NCBI GenBank assembly: GCA_022843225.1
Contig: JALHOC010000002.1
Location: 1-64,000, forward strand
Length of the DNA stretch: 64,000 bases
Source of the DNA: Hyphomonadaceae bacterium
GTDB lineage: Bacteria; Pseudomonadota; Alphaproteobacteria; Caulobacterales; Aquidulcibacteraceae
Direction: 5' to 3'
Numbering within the stretch: position 1 is the first letter of the stretch; every line of letters starts with the position of its first letter. The translations under genes were made by a program, and so were the position numbers. The notes beneath the pieces were generated by a model that did not search any database, was not told the origin of the DNA, and worked only from the letters and a program-made list of their open reading frames with translations. Positions 17,006 to 38,175 of this stretch are shown here, piece after piece.

Positions 17006-18066
17006 TGAACCGCGAACAACGCCTCGCCGCGCTCAACGCTGAAATGGCCAAGCGCATCCTGATCCTCGATGGATCGATGGGTGCCTATCTGCAAGGCTTT
17101 GGGCTGACCACCAACGACTTCCACGGCACGCGGTTCGTGGAGCATCCGATGTCGCTCAAGGGCGACAACGATCTGCTTGTGCTCACGCAGCCTCAGGTCA
17201 TCACGAAAGTACACGAGGGTTACTTCGCTGCCGGCGCCGACATCGCCTCCACCAATACGTTCAACGCTACGCGAATCAGCCAGGCGGAATATGCGCTCGA
17301 AGACGTGGTGTACGAGATCAATGTCGAGGCCGCGCGTCTCGCCCGCGCGGCTGCGGACAAATTCGAGGCGCAAGATGGACGCCCGCGCGCGGTGGCCGGC
17401 GCGCTGGGGCCAACGACGAAGTTGCTCTCGATGTCGCCGGAGGTCGGCGACCCCGGTCGGCGCGATGTCAACTTCGAGACGATGGCGAAGAATTACGAGG
17501 AGCAGGCGTTGGGGCTGATCGAAGGCGGCGCCGATCTTCTGCTGATCGAGACCATCACCGATACGTTAAACGCCAAGTCCGCGCTCTGGGGCGCGTGGGA
17601 AGCGTTTGACAAAACGGGGGTGGAACTGCCGCTCTGGATTTCGGGCACGATCACGGATCGCTCAGGCCGAACGCTCTCGGGCCAAACCGTGGAGGCATTT
17701 TACAATTCGGTGCGGCACGCCAAGCCGTGGGCGGTGGGGCTCAATTGCGCGCTGGGGCCAGTGGAAATGCGCGCCTTCCTCGCCGATCTTGCGCGGGTGG
17801 CCGAGTGCGCGGTGAGCGCCTATCCGAACGCCGGCTTGCCGAACGCCATGGGCGGCTATGATGAAACCCCGCACTCGATGGAAGCTCACTATGCAGAGTG
17901 GGCGCGGGCCGGCTTGCTCAACATCGCCGGCGGTTGTTGCGGCACCACGCCGGAGCATATCGAACACATGAAGCATGCGGTGGAGGGCGTGACGCCGCGC
18001 GTTGCGCCGATGCCTGACGCGCGCTTGCGGCTTGCGGGGCTGGAACCATTCACGGCGGTGGCGTGA
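17002..18066 (+). CDS. metH: Methionine synthase, homocysteine S-methyltransferase half (split MetH)
   Basis: A 354-residue protein equal to the first domain of MetH. ILDGSMGAYLQ opens the barrel, and the zinc ligands appear as GLNCALGP and GGCCGTTPEH. In full-length MetH this module binds homocysteine and is joined to the folate and cobalamin modules; here those are in the gene at 18550. Split MetH is known in Caulobacter-type alphaproteobacteria. It starts at ATG 17002, inside the stop of metF (ATGA), and its TGA overlaps the ATG of the next gene by one base. Confidence 0.93.
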   Translation: MMNREQRLAALNAEMAKRILILDGSMGAYLQGFGLTTNDFHGTRFVEHPMSLKGDNDLLVLTQPQVITKVHEGYFAAGADIASTNTFNATRISQAEYALEDVVYEINVEAARLARAAADKFEAQDGRPRAVAGALGPTTKLLSMSPEVGDPGRRDVNFETMAKNYEEQALGLIEGGADLLLIETITDTLNAKSALWGAWEAFDKTGVELPLWISGTITDRSGRTLSGQTVEAFYNSVRHAKPWAVGLNCALGPVEMRAFLADLARVAECAVSAYPNAGLPNAMGGYDETPHSMEAHYAEWARAGLLNIAGGCCGTTPEHIEHMKHAVEGVTPRVAPMPDARLRLAGLEPFTAVA

Positions 18067-18548
18067 TGGAAACGTCAGACGCAATTTCGCTTGTTGCGAC
18101 CGTCCTGGCGCTTGTTGCGCTGACGGTGTCGATCTCGGAGGCTCTGGCAAATCGCCCCAGGCTCCGCTTGAAGTATAGCTACGCAATGGGCGTGGGGGGA
18201 ATGACGGGCGAGTGGATTGTGATCAGCGCGACGAACTGGGGGCGACAGGCCACAACGATCGATAGCGTTTCAATTGAGTTTCCCGGATTGCGAGGTGCAG
18301 ACGGCCAGTCGAAGCACACACCACACATACCCCAGATGCAGAACGGAATTGCCGTTGGCAAACAGTGCCCCTTCCTTCTCGAAGTCGGCCATGCCGCCGA
18401 TTTCCATTTTCCCCTGGCGCCCAGGGAGATTGAGGACGAGGAGGGTACTTTGCAGACCCTCATCAAGCGGTACGGTGCCACGGCACGCATAACTACGAGC
18501 TGGCATAGAAAACCTCTGCGGCTTTCGATATCGAAAGCCGAACGATAG
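18066..18548 (+). CDS. Unknown small membrane protein inside the metH operon
   Basis: A 160-residue protein I do not recognise. One membrane helix is likely at about residues 6-28 ([19 protein letters not shown]), followed by a basic turn and a soluble, probably beta-sandwich region with [13 protein letters not shown] and a C-terminal [10 protein letters not shown]. The topology may place the soluble part in the cytoplasm. The gene begins at an ATG that overlaps the metH N-half stop (TGATG) and ends one base before the metH C-half, so it must be co-transcribed. Its base composition is visibly less GC-rich than its neighbours, with more A/T-ending codons, suggesting acquisition. A role in methionine synthesis is not shown. 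Confidence 0.75.
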
Positions 18549-18549
18549 C

Positions 18550-21192
<2,643 letters not shown>

Positions 21193-32381: not shown

Positions 32382-33476
32382 TCAGGCCGCTTCGGCGGCG
32401 CCTACGGATTGAAGTATGCGCGTACCGAAGGGCGCGAGCGGTTGCGGGCGATAGTTTGCATCGCCCGCATACCTGAGCCGTGCGGCCTCGTGTACATCCT
32501 CGAAGCGCGTCAAGCCGGTGCGCCAACGCGCCCCCGCGAGCTTCAGCAATGATGCGCCTTTGGCCCCGAGCGGCGCGCCGATCGGATCAATCTCAGCTAA
32601 GGCGGAGGAGAGCACCGAGCCCGGCTCGCGCGCGAAGGTGAGTCCAGCCGTCTCCGCGCCCTCCACCACCCACATCAGTGCGCAATTGGACAGGCCACGC
32701 GAAAAATCGTCGCCGCCGACGCCGCCATGATCGCCCGGGAACCAGGCTTGGATCACCCGTTCAGGCGCGTTTGGCGCGTTGAAGCTCGCGACATTGCTCC
32801 ACAGCGTCGGTGTGAAGGCGGCGCGGCGCTCGTCGGTCGCCACCGCGTGGCGGGCGAACTCCACTGAGCGCGAGAGCGTTGTGTCGTGAAACTGATAACG
32901 CTCATTGAGTCCAAGATTGATCGGCAGCACGCGTGGGATGCCGAGCGCGCCAACTGTGTCCCACACGCCGAGAAAGCGGATGCGCAGATCGACAGGCGGC
33001 GTCGTGAACGGCATGGCGAGCTTGGGCCAGGCGATCGCGTGCGCGGCGCGAAATTTCTCGGCGTCGGGCGTGTCGGCGCCGAGGTCGCGGTTGCGGTAGA
33101 GATCAAGCGCGGCGCGGGCTTTGTCGACATGCGCGCGGCGCAGGATGCCGCATTTTCGCACGAGGCCAGCGAGGGTGCGCACGGTATAGGCGCCGCGCGA
33201 GAAGCCGAAGAAGTAGAGCTGATCGCCCGGCTCGTAATTGAGGTTGAGGAAGAGGTATGCGTCGAGCAGATGATCGTCGAGATCGGCGCCGGTCATGCCT
33301 TGCCACAGGCTCATGCCGCCAAGTGATGCGCCCACGCCCACCGAATAATACACGATCTGCGGCACGCCCTTGGCGTCGCGCGGCGCGATCGCGCGGGCAG
33401 TCAGCGCCACATTCGTCAAAGCGCCCGCATAGAGCCGTTGCCAGGTGCCGTCGCAGCAGATGACGAGACGCTTCAT
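32382..33476 (-). CDS. DUF2235 alpha/beta hydrolase-like protein
   Basis: A 364-residue protein of the DUF2235 family (Tle1-like phospholipase fold). RLVICCDGTWQ opens it, with the nucleophile motif FFGFSRGAYTVRTL (G-F-S-R-G) and VWDTVGALGIP, HDTTLS and PGDHGGVGG downstream, where the Asp and His of the triad are expected. Members include T6SS effectors and stand-alone cytoplasmic hydrolases; no T6SS or immunity gene is near, so the stand-alone form is more likely. It starts eight bases after metW on the same strand, so it may be part of the metX-metW unit. Confidence 0.88.
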   Translation of the reverse strand: MKRLVICCDGTWQRLYAGALTNVALTARAIAPRDAKGVPQIVYYSVGVGASLGGMSLWQGMTGADLDDHLLDAYLFLNLNYEPGDQLYFFGFSRGAYTVRTLAGLVRKCGILRRAHVDKARAALDLYRNRDLGADTPDAEKFRAAHAIAWPKLAMPFTTPPVDLRIRFLGVWDTVGALGIPRVLPINLGLNERYQFHDTTLSRSVEFARHAVATDERRAAFTPTLWSNVASFNAPNAPERVIQAWFPGDHGGVGGDDFSRGLSNCALMWVVEGAETAGLTFAREPGSVLSSALAEIDPIGAPLGAKGASLLKLAGARWRTGLTRFEDVHEAARLRYAGDANYRPQPLAPFGTRILQSVGAAEAA

Positions 33477-33484
33477 TGCACGTG

Positions 33485-34108
33485 TCAGGATGCCAACAGG
33501 AACACGGCCTCTTCGGCGAACCAATTGGCGCGCCAGAGCACCTTGGCGAATGGCGCGCCGGGATTACCATGGGTAAGCGGCACTGCGCGTTCGATATTGA
33601 ACCGCATCGTGCGCGCGAAGACGGCGAAGTCTCGCACGCTGGTCGGGTGGGCCGTCTGTGCGCCGAAAAGTGTCGGTAGGCTCCCTTTGAAGAAGAGCCG
33701 CATGCGGGCTTGCAGGTGCGCGCTATTGCGGATCGAGACGATCACGCGCTCGCCAATGCGAGCGGCCTGCCTCAACGCATCCTGTGGACGGCGCAGCTCC
33801 TGCAGCGTGTGCGAAAAGATCACATAGTCAAACGCGCCACTCGGCACATCGGCCAGATCGCGCTCGGCGTCTCCTTGCGCCACGGCCAGCCCGCGCCGTA
33901 CGCACGCATGCACTTTTGCGGCTTCAAGCTCTAAGCCGCGTGCGCGGATATTGCGTTCACGCGCAAGATAGGCCATCAGCGCGCCGTCGCCGCAGCCGAT
34001 GTCGAGTACGCGCGCGCCTTCGCCGATCATCGCAGCGATGATCTCGTGATCGGGGCGGGGGCGCGCCTCCTCGCGCGGCAGCGCTTGAACCAGTTCGAGA
34101 TGCGCCAT
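33485..34108 (-). CDS. metW: Methionine biosynthesis protein MetW
   Basis: A 207-residue methyltransferase-fold protein with VLDIGCGDGALMAYL and FDYVIFSHTLQEL, and a RVIVSIRNSAHLQARMRL segment typical of MetW. MetW is paired with MetX in proteobacteria and is needed for, or regulates, homoserine acetylation. Its ATG overlaps the stop of the metX-like gene by one base (TGATG). An upstream in-frame TTG at 34111 is also possible. Confidence 0.92.
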   Translation of the reverse strand: MAHLELVQALPREEARPRPDHEIIAAMIGEGARVLDIGCGDGALMAYLARERNIRARGLELEAAKVHACVRRGLAVAQGDAERDLADVPSGAFDYVIFSHTLQELRRPQDALRQAARIGERVIVSIRNSAHLQARMRLFFKGSLPTLFGAQTAHPTSVRDFAVFARTMRFNIERAVPLTHGNPGAPFAKVLWRANWFAEEAVFLLAS

Positions 34109-35247
34109 CAATTGGCTCCCGTTTGCAGCGCTAGGCCGCGCGCGGCAGCCGCTGAATCGATGAAGCCGGTGAGCGCCGCTTCAAACGCCGAATCCTCGCC
34201 GAGATAAGAATCATTGCCCTGCTCGCTCTCGATTTCGATATAGGCGGCGTCGGCGCCGGCGGCGATCAATGCGCGGGCGATGGCGCGGCTCTCCTCGGGC
34301 GGGTAGCGCCAATCGCTGGTGAACGCGAACACGCCGTGCCGGGTTTGGCCGCCCTGGAAGGCGTTGGCGAGCCTGCCGCCGAAATCAGCGCCAAGGTCGA
34401 AGCCGTCCATGGCGCGCGAGAGGTACAAGAACGCGTTTGCGTCGAAGCGCTCGATGACGCCGGGCTGGTGTTCGAGCGCGAAGCCCAAACGTTCGCTGGC
34501 GTGTGCGGTTTCGAAGCGAGCCCGCACATCGCGTTCCGAGACGCTTGGCATCTGCAACGCCGCGCGGGCCACGGCCAAGCCTTTGCTCGGGCGCACGCCA
34601 TGAGCGTAATAGGCGCCGTTGCGCCAGTCGAGGTCGGCCATGATCGCTTGCCGGCCAAGCTCGCCGAAGGCGATGTTCTGCGCGGTGTGGCGCGCCGCGC
34701 TTGCGACGGTCGCGCACGCGAACACGCGCTTAGGGTAGGCGCTCGCCCAGTTCAGCGCCTGCATGCCGCCGAGGCCCGCGCCGATGACGAGGAACAGGTT
34801 GGGAATGTCGAGCGCTTCAATCAGCATGGCTTGAGCGCGCACGGTGTCGGCGATTGTGATCTGTGGGAAGCGCAAGCCATAGGGTTTACCGTCCCGCGCA
34901 AGCGCATTGGGGCCTGTTGTGCCCATCGATCCGCCGAGCACATTGGCGCAAATCACGAATAGGCGATTGGTGTCGATCACCCGGCCCGGGCCGACGATGC
35001 GCGGCCACCAGGGCGGGCGCCCGGTCAACGGATTGGGGCTGGCGACGAATTGGTCGTTCAGCACGTCATGGCACACCAGCACGGCGTTGCTGTGGGCGGC
35101 GTTCAACGTGCCGTAGGTCTCGAACGCGATAGTCAGCGGCGCGATGACGTCGCCGCTGGCCAGCTGCAGCTTCGCGTCTGACTCGAAGGACAGCGTGCGT
35201 AGGCCGCCCGCCGCTTGGATTTTCGCCGTCGCGCCTGAGTGATTCAT
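34108..35247 (-). CDS. MetX-like alpha/beta hydrolase lacking catalytic Ser and His
   Basis: A 379-residue homologue of homoserine O-acetyltransferase (MetX), the first step of direct-sulfhydrylation methionine synthesis. The fold and many motifs are kept (FETYGTLNAAHSNAVLVCH, NVLGGSMGTTGP, TSDWRYPPEESR with Asp312). The nucleophile motif, normally GGSMGGMQ, reads GAGLGGMQ, so Ser is Gly158, and the last motif, normally GHDAFL, reads GNDSYL, so the catalytic His is Asn345. The CHALTGD segment is also changed to CHDVLND. I checked both codons in the nucleotides (GGC, AAT). It should lack normal acyltransferase activity. It is the first gene of a unit with metW, divergent from the chorismate mutase gene. 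Confidence 0.85.
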   Translation of the reverse strand: MNHSGATAKIQAAGGLRTLSFESDAKLQLASGDVIAPLTIAFETYGTLNAAHSNAVLVCHDVLNDQFVASPNPLTGRPPWWPRIVGPGRVIDTNRLFVICANVLGGSMGTTGPNALARDGKPYGLRFPQITIADTVRAQAMLIEALDIPNLFLVIGAGLGGMQALNWASAYPKRVFACATVASAARHTAQNIAFGELGRQAIMADLDWRNGAYYAHGVRPSKGLAVARAALQMPSVSERDVRARFETAHASERLGFALEHQPGVIERFDANAFLYLSRAMDGFDLGADFGGRLANAFQGGQTRHGVFAFTSDWRYPPEESRAIARALIAAGADAAYIEIESEQGNDSYLGEDSAFEAALTGFIDSAAAARGLALQTGAN

Positions 35248-37131: not shown

Positions 37132-38175
37132 TCACCCGCCGCAGATTTCAGCCTGCTCTTGCGTGCGCATTTCCCATGAGCAGGAGTAGGCAGGATCGGC
37201 AGAGCAGAAGAAGCCGCCGGGCGTCTGCTGGCAGGAACAGGGCGACTCCGTGAAGCTCACTTGGCCGTTTCGATAGCCATCATTCGCCGCGATGCCCCGG
37301 CAAGCGCGTTCGCCATTGGTGCGTGCACTTTCGCGCGCGGCTTGGCATGCTGCGGCTTCGGTGGGCGCGGGAGTAGCGTTGACGCCGCGAATGACTTGCC
37401 CGACGCGCCCCGGCTGCCAGACTTCACGCGTTTCGGTGCGGCAGGTCAGCAAGATGTCGCGCACGCGGCCGGCATAGGCGCCGTTTGGGTACACAACCAG
37501 ATAGCTCTGAAAATCTTGCCGCGTCTTGGAGGCGATCGCCTGGTTCCAGGCGGCTTGCTCCGCAGCTTGCGGCGCGCCGGCGGTTGAGTCCGCCTGAGGC
37601 TGCGACGTACCCGGCGGCGTGAGGACCGTGCCGGCGCTCGGGGCGACGGCGCCGGGGTACGGTCGCGTCACGTACAAGAATGTGCCGATGGAGGCGATCG
37701 CCAGTATCGCCAGGGCGGCAAGGATCGGCAGTGCATTGCCGCGCGAACGCCGGCGCGGCGCGGCTTCAAGCCCTTTGGGGCGTTCTCCGCTCACGATCGC
37801 GCGTAAGGCGCCAAGCACCAATTGCCAGTGTTGGTCCTTGGTGTTGCCGGTCCAGCCGATGAGATCGCCCATCTGGATCAAGGAGAAGCCGAGCGGGGGG
37901 TCAACATCGTCGATGCGGATGGGCAGCAGGATGCCGCGATTTTTTCCGACGCCCGCTTCTTCCTTCACCCAAGGCGCGTTGATCGACTGATCGGACCAGA
38001 TGGCGATCACCGCTTTGGCGGCGGTGAGCTCGTTCTGGATGGTCTGATCCCATTGCGCGCCAGGCGTGATGCCGTGATCCCACCACACCGAAAAGCCTTC
38101 GGCGCGCAGCCCTTCGACGATGCGGACGACGCGCCCAGCGTCTTCTTTTTTATATGAAATAAAAATGTCAGCCAT
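37132..38175 (-). CDS. TIR-domain membrane protein with Cys-rich C-terminus
   Basis: A 347-residue protein with a TIR domain at 1-130 (DIFISYKKEDAGRV; EGFSVWWDHGITPGAQW; AVIAIWSDQSINAPWV; catalytic-type Glu in WVKEE at 69-73, where SARM1 has W-V-H-K-E). A basic stretch and one membrane helix follow (about 148-169), then a Pro/Ala linker, a YLVVYPNGAYAGRVRDIL segment like that in bacterial caspase-like proteins, and a tail with eight Cys between 245 and 345. The TIR part should be cytoplasmic and the tail periplasmic. TIR domains of this sort are NADases in several anti-phage systems; no partner gene is seen. It follows the DUF2125 gene by 78 bases. Confidence 0.85.
   Translation of the reverse strand: MADIFISYKKEDAGRVVRIVEGLRAEGFSVWWDHGITPGAQWDQTIQNELTAAKAVIAIWSDQSINAPWVKEEAGVGKNRGILLPIRIDDVDPPLGFSLIQMGDLIGWTGNTKDQHWQLVLGALRAIVSGERPKGLEAAPRRRSRGNALPILAALAILAIASIGTFLYVTRPYPGAVAPSAGTVLTPPGTSQPQADSTAGAPQAAEQAAWNQAIASKTRQDFQSYLVVYPNGAYAGRVRDILLTCRTETREVWQPGRVGQVIRGVNATPAPTEAAACQAARESARTNGERACRGIAANDGYRNGQVSFTESPCSCQQTPGGFFCSADPAYSCSWEMRTQEQAEICGG

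Follow-up and report, generated by a model that had tools for sequence, protein, structure and literature searches.

In the Hyphomonadaceae genus that includes the window, the 64,000-nucleotide stretch of DNA analysed here, the MetX homologue encoded beside metW (MetX1) lacks the nucleophilic Ser of homoserine acyltransferases in all but one of the genomes where it was found, and its partner MetW lacks two family motifs in the same genomes. Comparisons of sequences suggest one old change that affected both proteins, followed by strong conservation of the altered pair. Our best explanation, to which we give a probability of about one half (0.53), is that MetX1 and MetW were released from homoserine acylation and would now form a conserved, ligand-binding pseudoenzyme pair.

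The window gene and its neighbours

Contig 2 of a draft assembly of 2.86 Mb (117 contigs, 99.5% complete) begins with the 64 kb of the window. The metX1 gene encodes a protein of 379 aa (Table 1) that passes the NCBIfam model for MetX, NF001209, with 371.6 bits versus a cut-off of 331. The TIGR01392 score of 326.9 is below the cut-off of 500, which is missed by all 30 genomes of the genus, including the Ser-bearing G009 (450). Most of the protein can be aligned with solved MetX chains, best with 2pl5, and an AlphaFold2 model obtained with no templates (pLDDT 86.7, pTM 0.89) retrieved MetX entries first when searched against the PDB with Foldseek, 2pl5 being the best match (E 8.1e-38) and 6pux, 8f2l and 6ioh standing within the first 14. 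The assignment to the MetX family made in a sequence-only reading of this DNA is thus confirmed. That reading had also claimed that the catalytic Ser and His are replaced by Gly158 and Asn345 while Asp312 is kept, and the alignment to the solved chains agrees with it on all three residues, placing Asp312 under the triad Asp.

PMC6937278 describes Thr61, Arg227, Tyr234 and Asp351 (Mt numbering) as lining the MetX tunnel; the numbering is taken from that paper, and the mapping of these residues onto the window protein is our own, from the alignments. The tunnel Arg and Asp are kept in the window protein, Tyr is replaced by Ser235 and Thr by Leu63.

Table 1. Positions in the window of the genes and codons discussed in the text
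Feature	Position	Strand	Basis
metX1, Ser-less MetX homologue	34108..35247	-	ORF, profile, alignment, model
Codon 158, GGC (Gly), where MetX has its catalytic Ser (Mt Ser157)	34774..34776	-	Codons and alignment to solved MetX (GGSMGGMQ)
Codon 345, AAT (Asn), where MetX has its catalytic His (Mt His350)	34213..34215	-	Codons and alignment (GHD)
Asp312, kept triad Asp (Mt Asp320)	34312..34314	-	Alignment
Arg228, kept tunnel Arg (Mt Arg227)	34564..34566	-	Alignment
Ser235, at the tunnel Tyr position of functional MetX (Mt Tyr234)	34543..34545	-	Alignment
Asp346, kept tunnel Asp (Mt Asp351)	34210..34212	-	Alignment
Ser107, replacing Cys of NVLGGC	34927..34929	-	Alignment
metW	33485..34111	-	Shares a few bases with metX1; has the SAM motif but has lost the family motifs
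Tle1-like T6SS phospholipase domain protein	32382..33524	-	PF09994, 252.9 bits
TIR-domain protein	37132..38175	-	PF13676, 75.1 bits
metH	17047..21081	+

We also looked at the surrounding genes. The gene of a Tle1-like T6SS phospholipase domain protein follows metW directly, and a similar protein was seen by eye beside metW in G009 and G010. Farther along, a TIR-domain protein with an apparent membrane segment (by eye) is encoded beside the prephenate dehydrogenase gene. In G009 (locus L120), a HisC-like aminotransferase gene (by eye) lies between a chorismate mutase-like gene and the prephenate dehydrogenase gene, a place where the window has none. No known RNA, SAM riboswitch included, was found near the genes at the gathering threshold in the window or in five other loci (L048, L114, L115, L119 and L120).

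Ser-less MetX1 and its MetW partner across the genus

Our sample comprised 30 genomes of the genus, known mostly from metagenomes. MetX1 was found in 28 of them and was missing only from G016 (65% complete) and G028 (57% complete). At the Ser position, 26 holders have Gly, one has Glu (G006) and one has Ser (G009). The 27 Ser-less genomes consist of 25 with a full-length MetX1 and two with a split gene (G015 and G023), broken near residue 128, the frame being intact in the other 26 holders. Since metX2 and its adjoining PLP (metB-like) gene are also in pieces in G015 and G023, an assembly error is likely behind the broken metX1. In the wider order, a nucleotide pattern designed to detect the Gly elbow had matches in 26 of 299 genomes, all in one genus of 54, the pattern covering Gly-Ala/Pro-Gly only, so that other losses of Ser escape it, as in G006. 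Nine loci of the clade (L079-L086 and L108) are labelled as MAGs from Hyphomonadaceae (6), Alphaproteobacteria (1), Caulobacteraceae (1) and Caulobacterales (1), and the eight that are full length all have Gly.

A tree built from 55 proteins placed all 25 full-length Ser-less MetX1 in one clade (support 100/100) with G009 as its sister, while the Ser-bearing protein of the next genus (G030) fell outside. This topology indicates that, as far as sampled, Ser was lost once, long ago in the genus. The history of His is different, as it is kept in 26 of the 27 Ser-less genomes (24 of the 25 full-length proteins and both split genes). The sequence-only reading had listed the losses of Ser and His together, and the two should be kept apart: both replacements are real, and the absence of Ser is shared by 27 of the 28 holders, but Asn345 recurs in none of the others, which points to a loss of His private to the window's species and separate from the older loss of Ser. 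Besides His345, the window protein has four private changes at columns that are invariant in the other 24; six such changes were counted in G012 and five in G002.

We then compared residues between the 25 full-length Ser-less proteins and 27 Ser-bearing MetX proteins. The equivalent of Tyr234 is lost in every Ser-less protein (Gly in 15, Ser in 8, Asn and Asp in one each), and the lid motif [VI].SYL occurs in none of them versus 26 of the 27 Ser-bearing rows. The Cys of NVLGGC, present in 27/27 Ser-bearing proteins, has been replaced by Ser in 21 Ser-less proteins and by Ala in the other 4. The changed CHALTGD loop that had been pointed out in the window protein turned out to be only partly a feature of the clade, the equivalent of Thr61 being still Thr in 15/25. 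Among the residues kept are Asp312 (25/25 full-length rows and 27/27 Ser-less genomes), Arg199 and Tyr213 (25/25 each), Arg228 (24/25, Lys in one) and Asp346 (24/25, Glu in one). Glu252, Arg314 and Leu197 are newly fixed in 25/25; the lid stretch at about columns 247-264 is gappy, so the columns of Glu252 and Phe260 hinge on how it is aligned. Overall, 133 columns are invariant among the 25 proteins.

No new invariant Ser or Cys that might substitute for the nucleophile was found in these 25 rows. Ser107 was ruled out as a replacement by the Ala of the four proteins mentioned above, in a count that leaves out the two split genes, which are out of frame there. Columns 59, 100, 169 and 178, which hold Ser or Cys in 25/25, were rejected as none is new: G009 has the same residues at columns 169 and 178, and it shares the motifs (LVCH and VIC) that contain columns 59 and 100.

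Compared with MetX homoserine O-acetyl/succinyltransferases (NF001209; PDB 2pl5, 6pux and 8f2l), the MetX1 clade shares the alpha/beta-hydrolase fold, the triad Asp, the tunnel Arg and Asp and the metW neighbour, but differs in lacking the nucleophilic Ser together with the tunnel Tyr and lid motif, to which the window protein adds the absence of His. The loss of Ser, Tyr and lid motif argues against acyl transfer, a prediction from aligned residues. The retention of Arg, of both Asp and mostly of His, together with low dN/dS, argues that the pocket would still bind something.

Selection was estimated as dN/dS by NG86 in 12 pairs that we picked among tree neighbours within the Ser-less clade. 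Values for metX1 ranged from 0.004 to 0.153, and from 0.004 to 0.062 in the six pairs of 91-100% identity (for example, G003/G004 with dN 0.018 and dS 0.65, or G001/G011 with dN 0.001 and dS 0.31), compared to 0.098-0.154 in five Ser-bearing pairs. The two pairs that include the window gene gave 0.24 and 0.20 at dS 0.78 and 1.09, which are probably saturated. For metW, the same 12 pairs gave 0.018-0.295. The stem of the Ser-less clade is longer than the branch of G009 (0.17 versus 0.074). These values indicate that metX1 of the Ser-less clade is under strong purifying selection and not decaying, in agreement with the earlier claim that the gene is intact, coupled with metW and under selection.

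To our knowledge, MetW has no settled biochemical role. According to a 2014 paper, it had been proposed to facilitate homoserine acylation (PMC4239095). A metW gene adjoins metX1 in 28/28 holders. In the window, its product matches PF07021 with 159 bits (cut-off 21) and carries the SAM motif VLDIGCGDG, while its TIGR02081 score of 149.4 is below the equivalog cut-off of 189.5. We searched for the family motifs FPNFGHW and N(I/L)H(L/F).(T/S) in loose forms: both were absent from MetW in 27/27 Ser-less genomes, which keep the SAM motif, and both were present in 26 of 28 Ser-bearing records, G045 lacking one motif and another record being cut by a contig end. With G009 as reference, the stretch of the lost motif is missing 6-10 residues in 19 of the 27 and 2-4 in six, and no deletion is seen there in G013 and G014. 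Thus, MetW of the Ser-less clade shares with the known family (PF07021, TIGR02081) its gene order, SAM-binding motif and PF07021 match and differs from it by the two conserved motifs and, in most genomes, by the deletion. Because the motifs are missing in the same 27 genomes as the Ser of MetX1, the two proteins appear, within our sampling, to have been altered on one and the same branch.

MetX2 and the route from homoserine to methionine

At E 0.001, the only other TIGR01392 match in the window genome lies on contig 57 and encodes MetX2, a protein of 318 aa with an intact triad (GASYGG, SSDQ and GHD) and 27% identity to MetX1. MetX2 passes NF006449, the model for homoserine O-succinyltransferase (302.9 bits versus a cut-off of 296), and its gene is directly upstream of a cystathionine gamma-synthase gene, metB (TIGR02080, 578.6 versus 504.55). 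A cystathionine beta-lyase is encoded on contig 30 (TIGR01324, 475.6 versus 365.9), and MetH inside the window, about 13 kb from metX1-metW; in several genomes of the genus, the homocysteine-binding part of MetH is found in a separate open frame. MetA was not found in the window genome. Because MetX2, MetB, beta-lyase and MetH are present, this genome is predicted to have the enzymes leading from homoserine to methionine without MetX1. MetX2, a short MetX of the NF006449 type, belongs to the same superfamily as MetX1, and its kind of reaction is the one presumed for the ancestral MetX1. It differs from the MetX1 of this genome by its intact triad, its length, its location on another contig and its metB neighbour.

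Across the genus, a complete or partial MetX2 was found in 24 of the 30 genomes and none in G009, G010, G014, G021, G024 and G025. Its Ser is kept in 31/31 aligned rows, and the 22 aligned copies of the genus form one clade (99/98). G018 (L130) has a second, strongly diverged copy (branch 1.26) that keeps Ser and His. In nine genomes from other families of the order, a MetX2-type gene is present and a full-length MetX1 is missing. As for G009, which has the Ser and no MetX2, it encodes an O-succinylhomoserine sulfhydrylase (TIGR01325, 516.5 versus a cut-off of 510.05), in a classification that covered part of the PF01053 genes of the genus. MetX1 together with this sulfhydrylase is presumably the ancestral route.

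The absence of MetX2 from G014 (81% complete) and G024 (92%), both placed among MetX2 relatives, may reflect gaps, while in G010 (99%), G021 (96%) and G025 (93%) it looks like true loss. These last three genomes also lack the metB that goes with MetX2, yet they keep the Ser-less MetX1-MetW pair as well as MetH. Among the PF01053 matches listed, which reach down to about 6e-5, each has two strong ones, the first to a PRK07049-type protein named as cystathionine gamma-synthase family and the second to a cystathionine beta-lyase (TIGR01324, 479-488 bits). MetA as the enzyme that took over was ruled out, PF04204 being found in 0/30 genomes of the genus. A third group of MetX-like genes occurs in eight genomes of the genus and was set aside as a rival of MetX: the three proteins read (L134, L136 and L138, out of eight) start with apparent signal peptides (by eye) and are probably exported hydrolases.

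Possible roles of the Ser-less pair

As shown above, Ser became Gly (Glu in one genome) on the branch leading to all sampled members of the genus but G009, with loss of the tunnel Tyr, of the lid motif and of the MetW family motifs on that same branch. In the pseudoenzyme explanation, take-over by MetX2-MetB would have freed MetX1-MetW from making acyl-homoserine, a single branch giving no order between the gain of MetX2 and the loss of Ser. MetX1 might still bind a homoserine-like ligand in its old pocket, and MetW SAM or SAH, so that the pair could signal the state of the amino-acid or SAM supply or scaffold another protein; the window's species would have gone one step further by dropping His too. 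Hydrolase folds retained without the nucleophile, as in MetX1, have a precedent in the NDRG-type non-catalytic alpha/beta hydrolases, which are eukaryotic and belong to an unrelated subfamily; we know of no metW partner for them. Our search of the open-access literature, with most subscription papers outside it, found no paper on a Ser-less MetX.

Several observations count against the pseudoenzyme explanation. First, the His-Asp dyad, kept in nearly all Ser-less genomes, goes beyond what a simple scaffold ought to require, and a Ser-independent reaction would also fit. Second, as MetX2 is absent from G010, G014, G021, G024 and G025, the take-over is not universal. Moreover, because beta-lyase, MetH and the PRK07049-type protein are kept, G010, G021 and G025 may run transsulfuration fed by some activator of homoserine, possibly MetX1 itself. 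The MetW of G013 and G014, which have no deletion at the lost motif, also speak against it. The claim that MetX and MetW turned together, in one ancestor, into a dedicated non-acylating pair, made of a pseudoenzyme with the homoserine pocket and a partner with the SAM fold, that serves as metabolite sensor or scaffold and outlived MetX2-MetB in three species is put forward only tentatively, at somewhat less than even odds. The sequence-only reading had proposed a non-catalytic partner or a changed chemistry, and these remain the leading possibilities; a role solely as regulator of another acyltransferase is weakened, because the three genomes without MetX2 keep the Ser-less pair.

Changed chemistry is a rather unlikely alternative, in which the His-Asp dyad and the homoserine pocket would run a Ser-free reaction, such as direct general-base catalysis acting on some other small molecule, and MetW would be the methyltransferase that assists it. 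The retention of His, Asp312, Arg228 and Asp346 in the absence of Ser is in its favour, as are the low dN/dS and the newly fixed polar Glu252 and Arg314. On the contrary, the window protein has lost even His, Tyr and the lid motif are gone, and no new neighbour gene hints at a substrate, the neighbours in G009 being the same by eye except for the HisC-like gene.

We consider it improbable that MetX1 is still a homoserine acyltransferase that works without Ser and with the help of MetW. MetH, beta-lyase and the gamma-synthase family protein of G010, G021 and G025 would need activated homoserine, and no other MetX and no MetA was found in these genomes; however, their MetX1 has lost Ser, Tyr and lid motif exactly as in the holders of MetX2, while G009, which has no MetX2 and possesses the O-succinylhomoserine sulfhydrylase, keeps all three. 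An equally doubtful possibility is that of a slowly decaying relic that persists by chance or through polar effects alone. The faster stem branch, the loss of His in one species and the dN/dS of the two window-gene pairs would fit such decay, but a frame intact in 26/28 holders (the two broken genes being in assemblies where metX2 and the metB-like gene are broken as well), the low dN/dS of the six closest pairs, the 133 invariant columns, the single old origin and the absence of the gene only from two genomes of 57% and 65% completeness speak against it. Finally, it is very improbable that the two codons reflect faulty assembly or sequencing, since the Ser-less state recurs in 27 genomes and only the Asn345 codon, one base from His and seen once in a draft assembly, rests on a single genome.

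If the pseudoenzyme explanation is true, this genus would provide a natural separation of the role of MetW from MetX catalysis. The clade links the MetW motifs with MetX catalysis and is a natural setting in which to test what else the pair does. In addition, annotation by profiles can miscall Ser-less proteins as homoserine acetyltransferases, as illustrated by the window protein, which passes NF001209.
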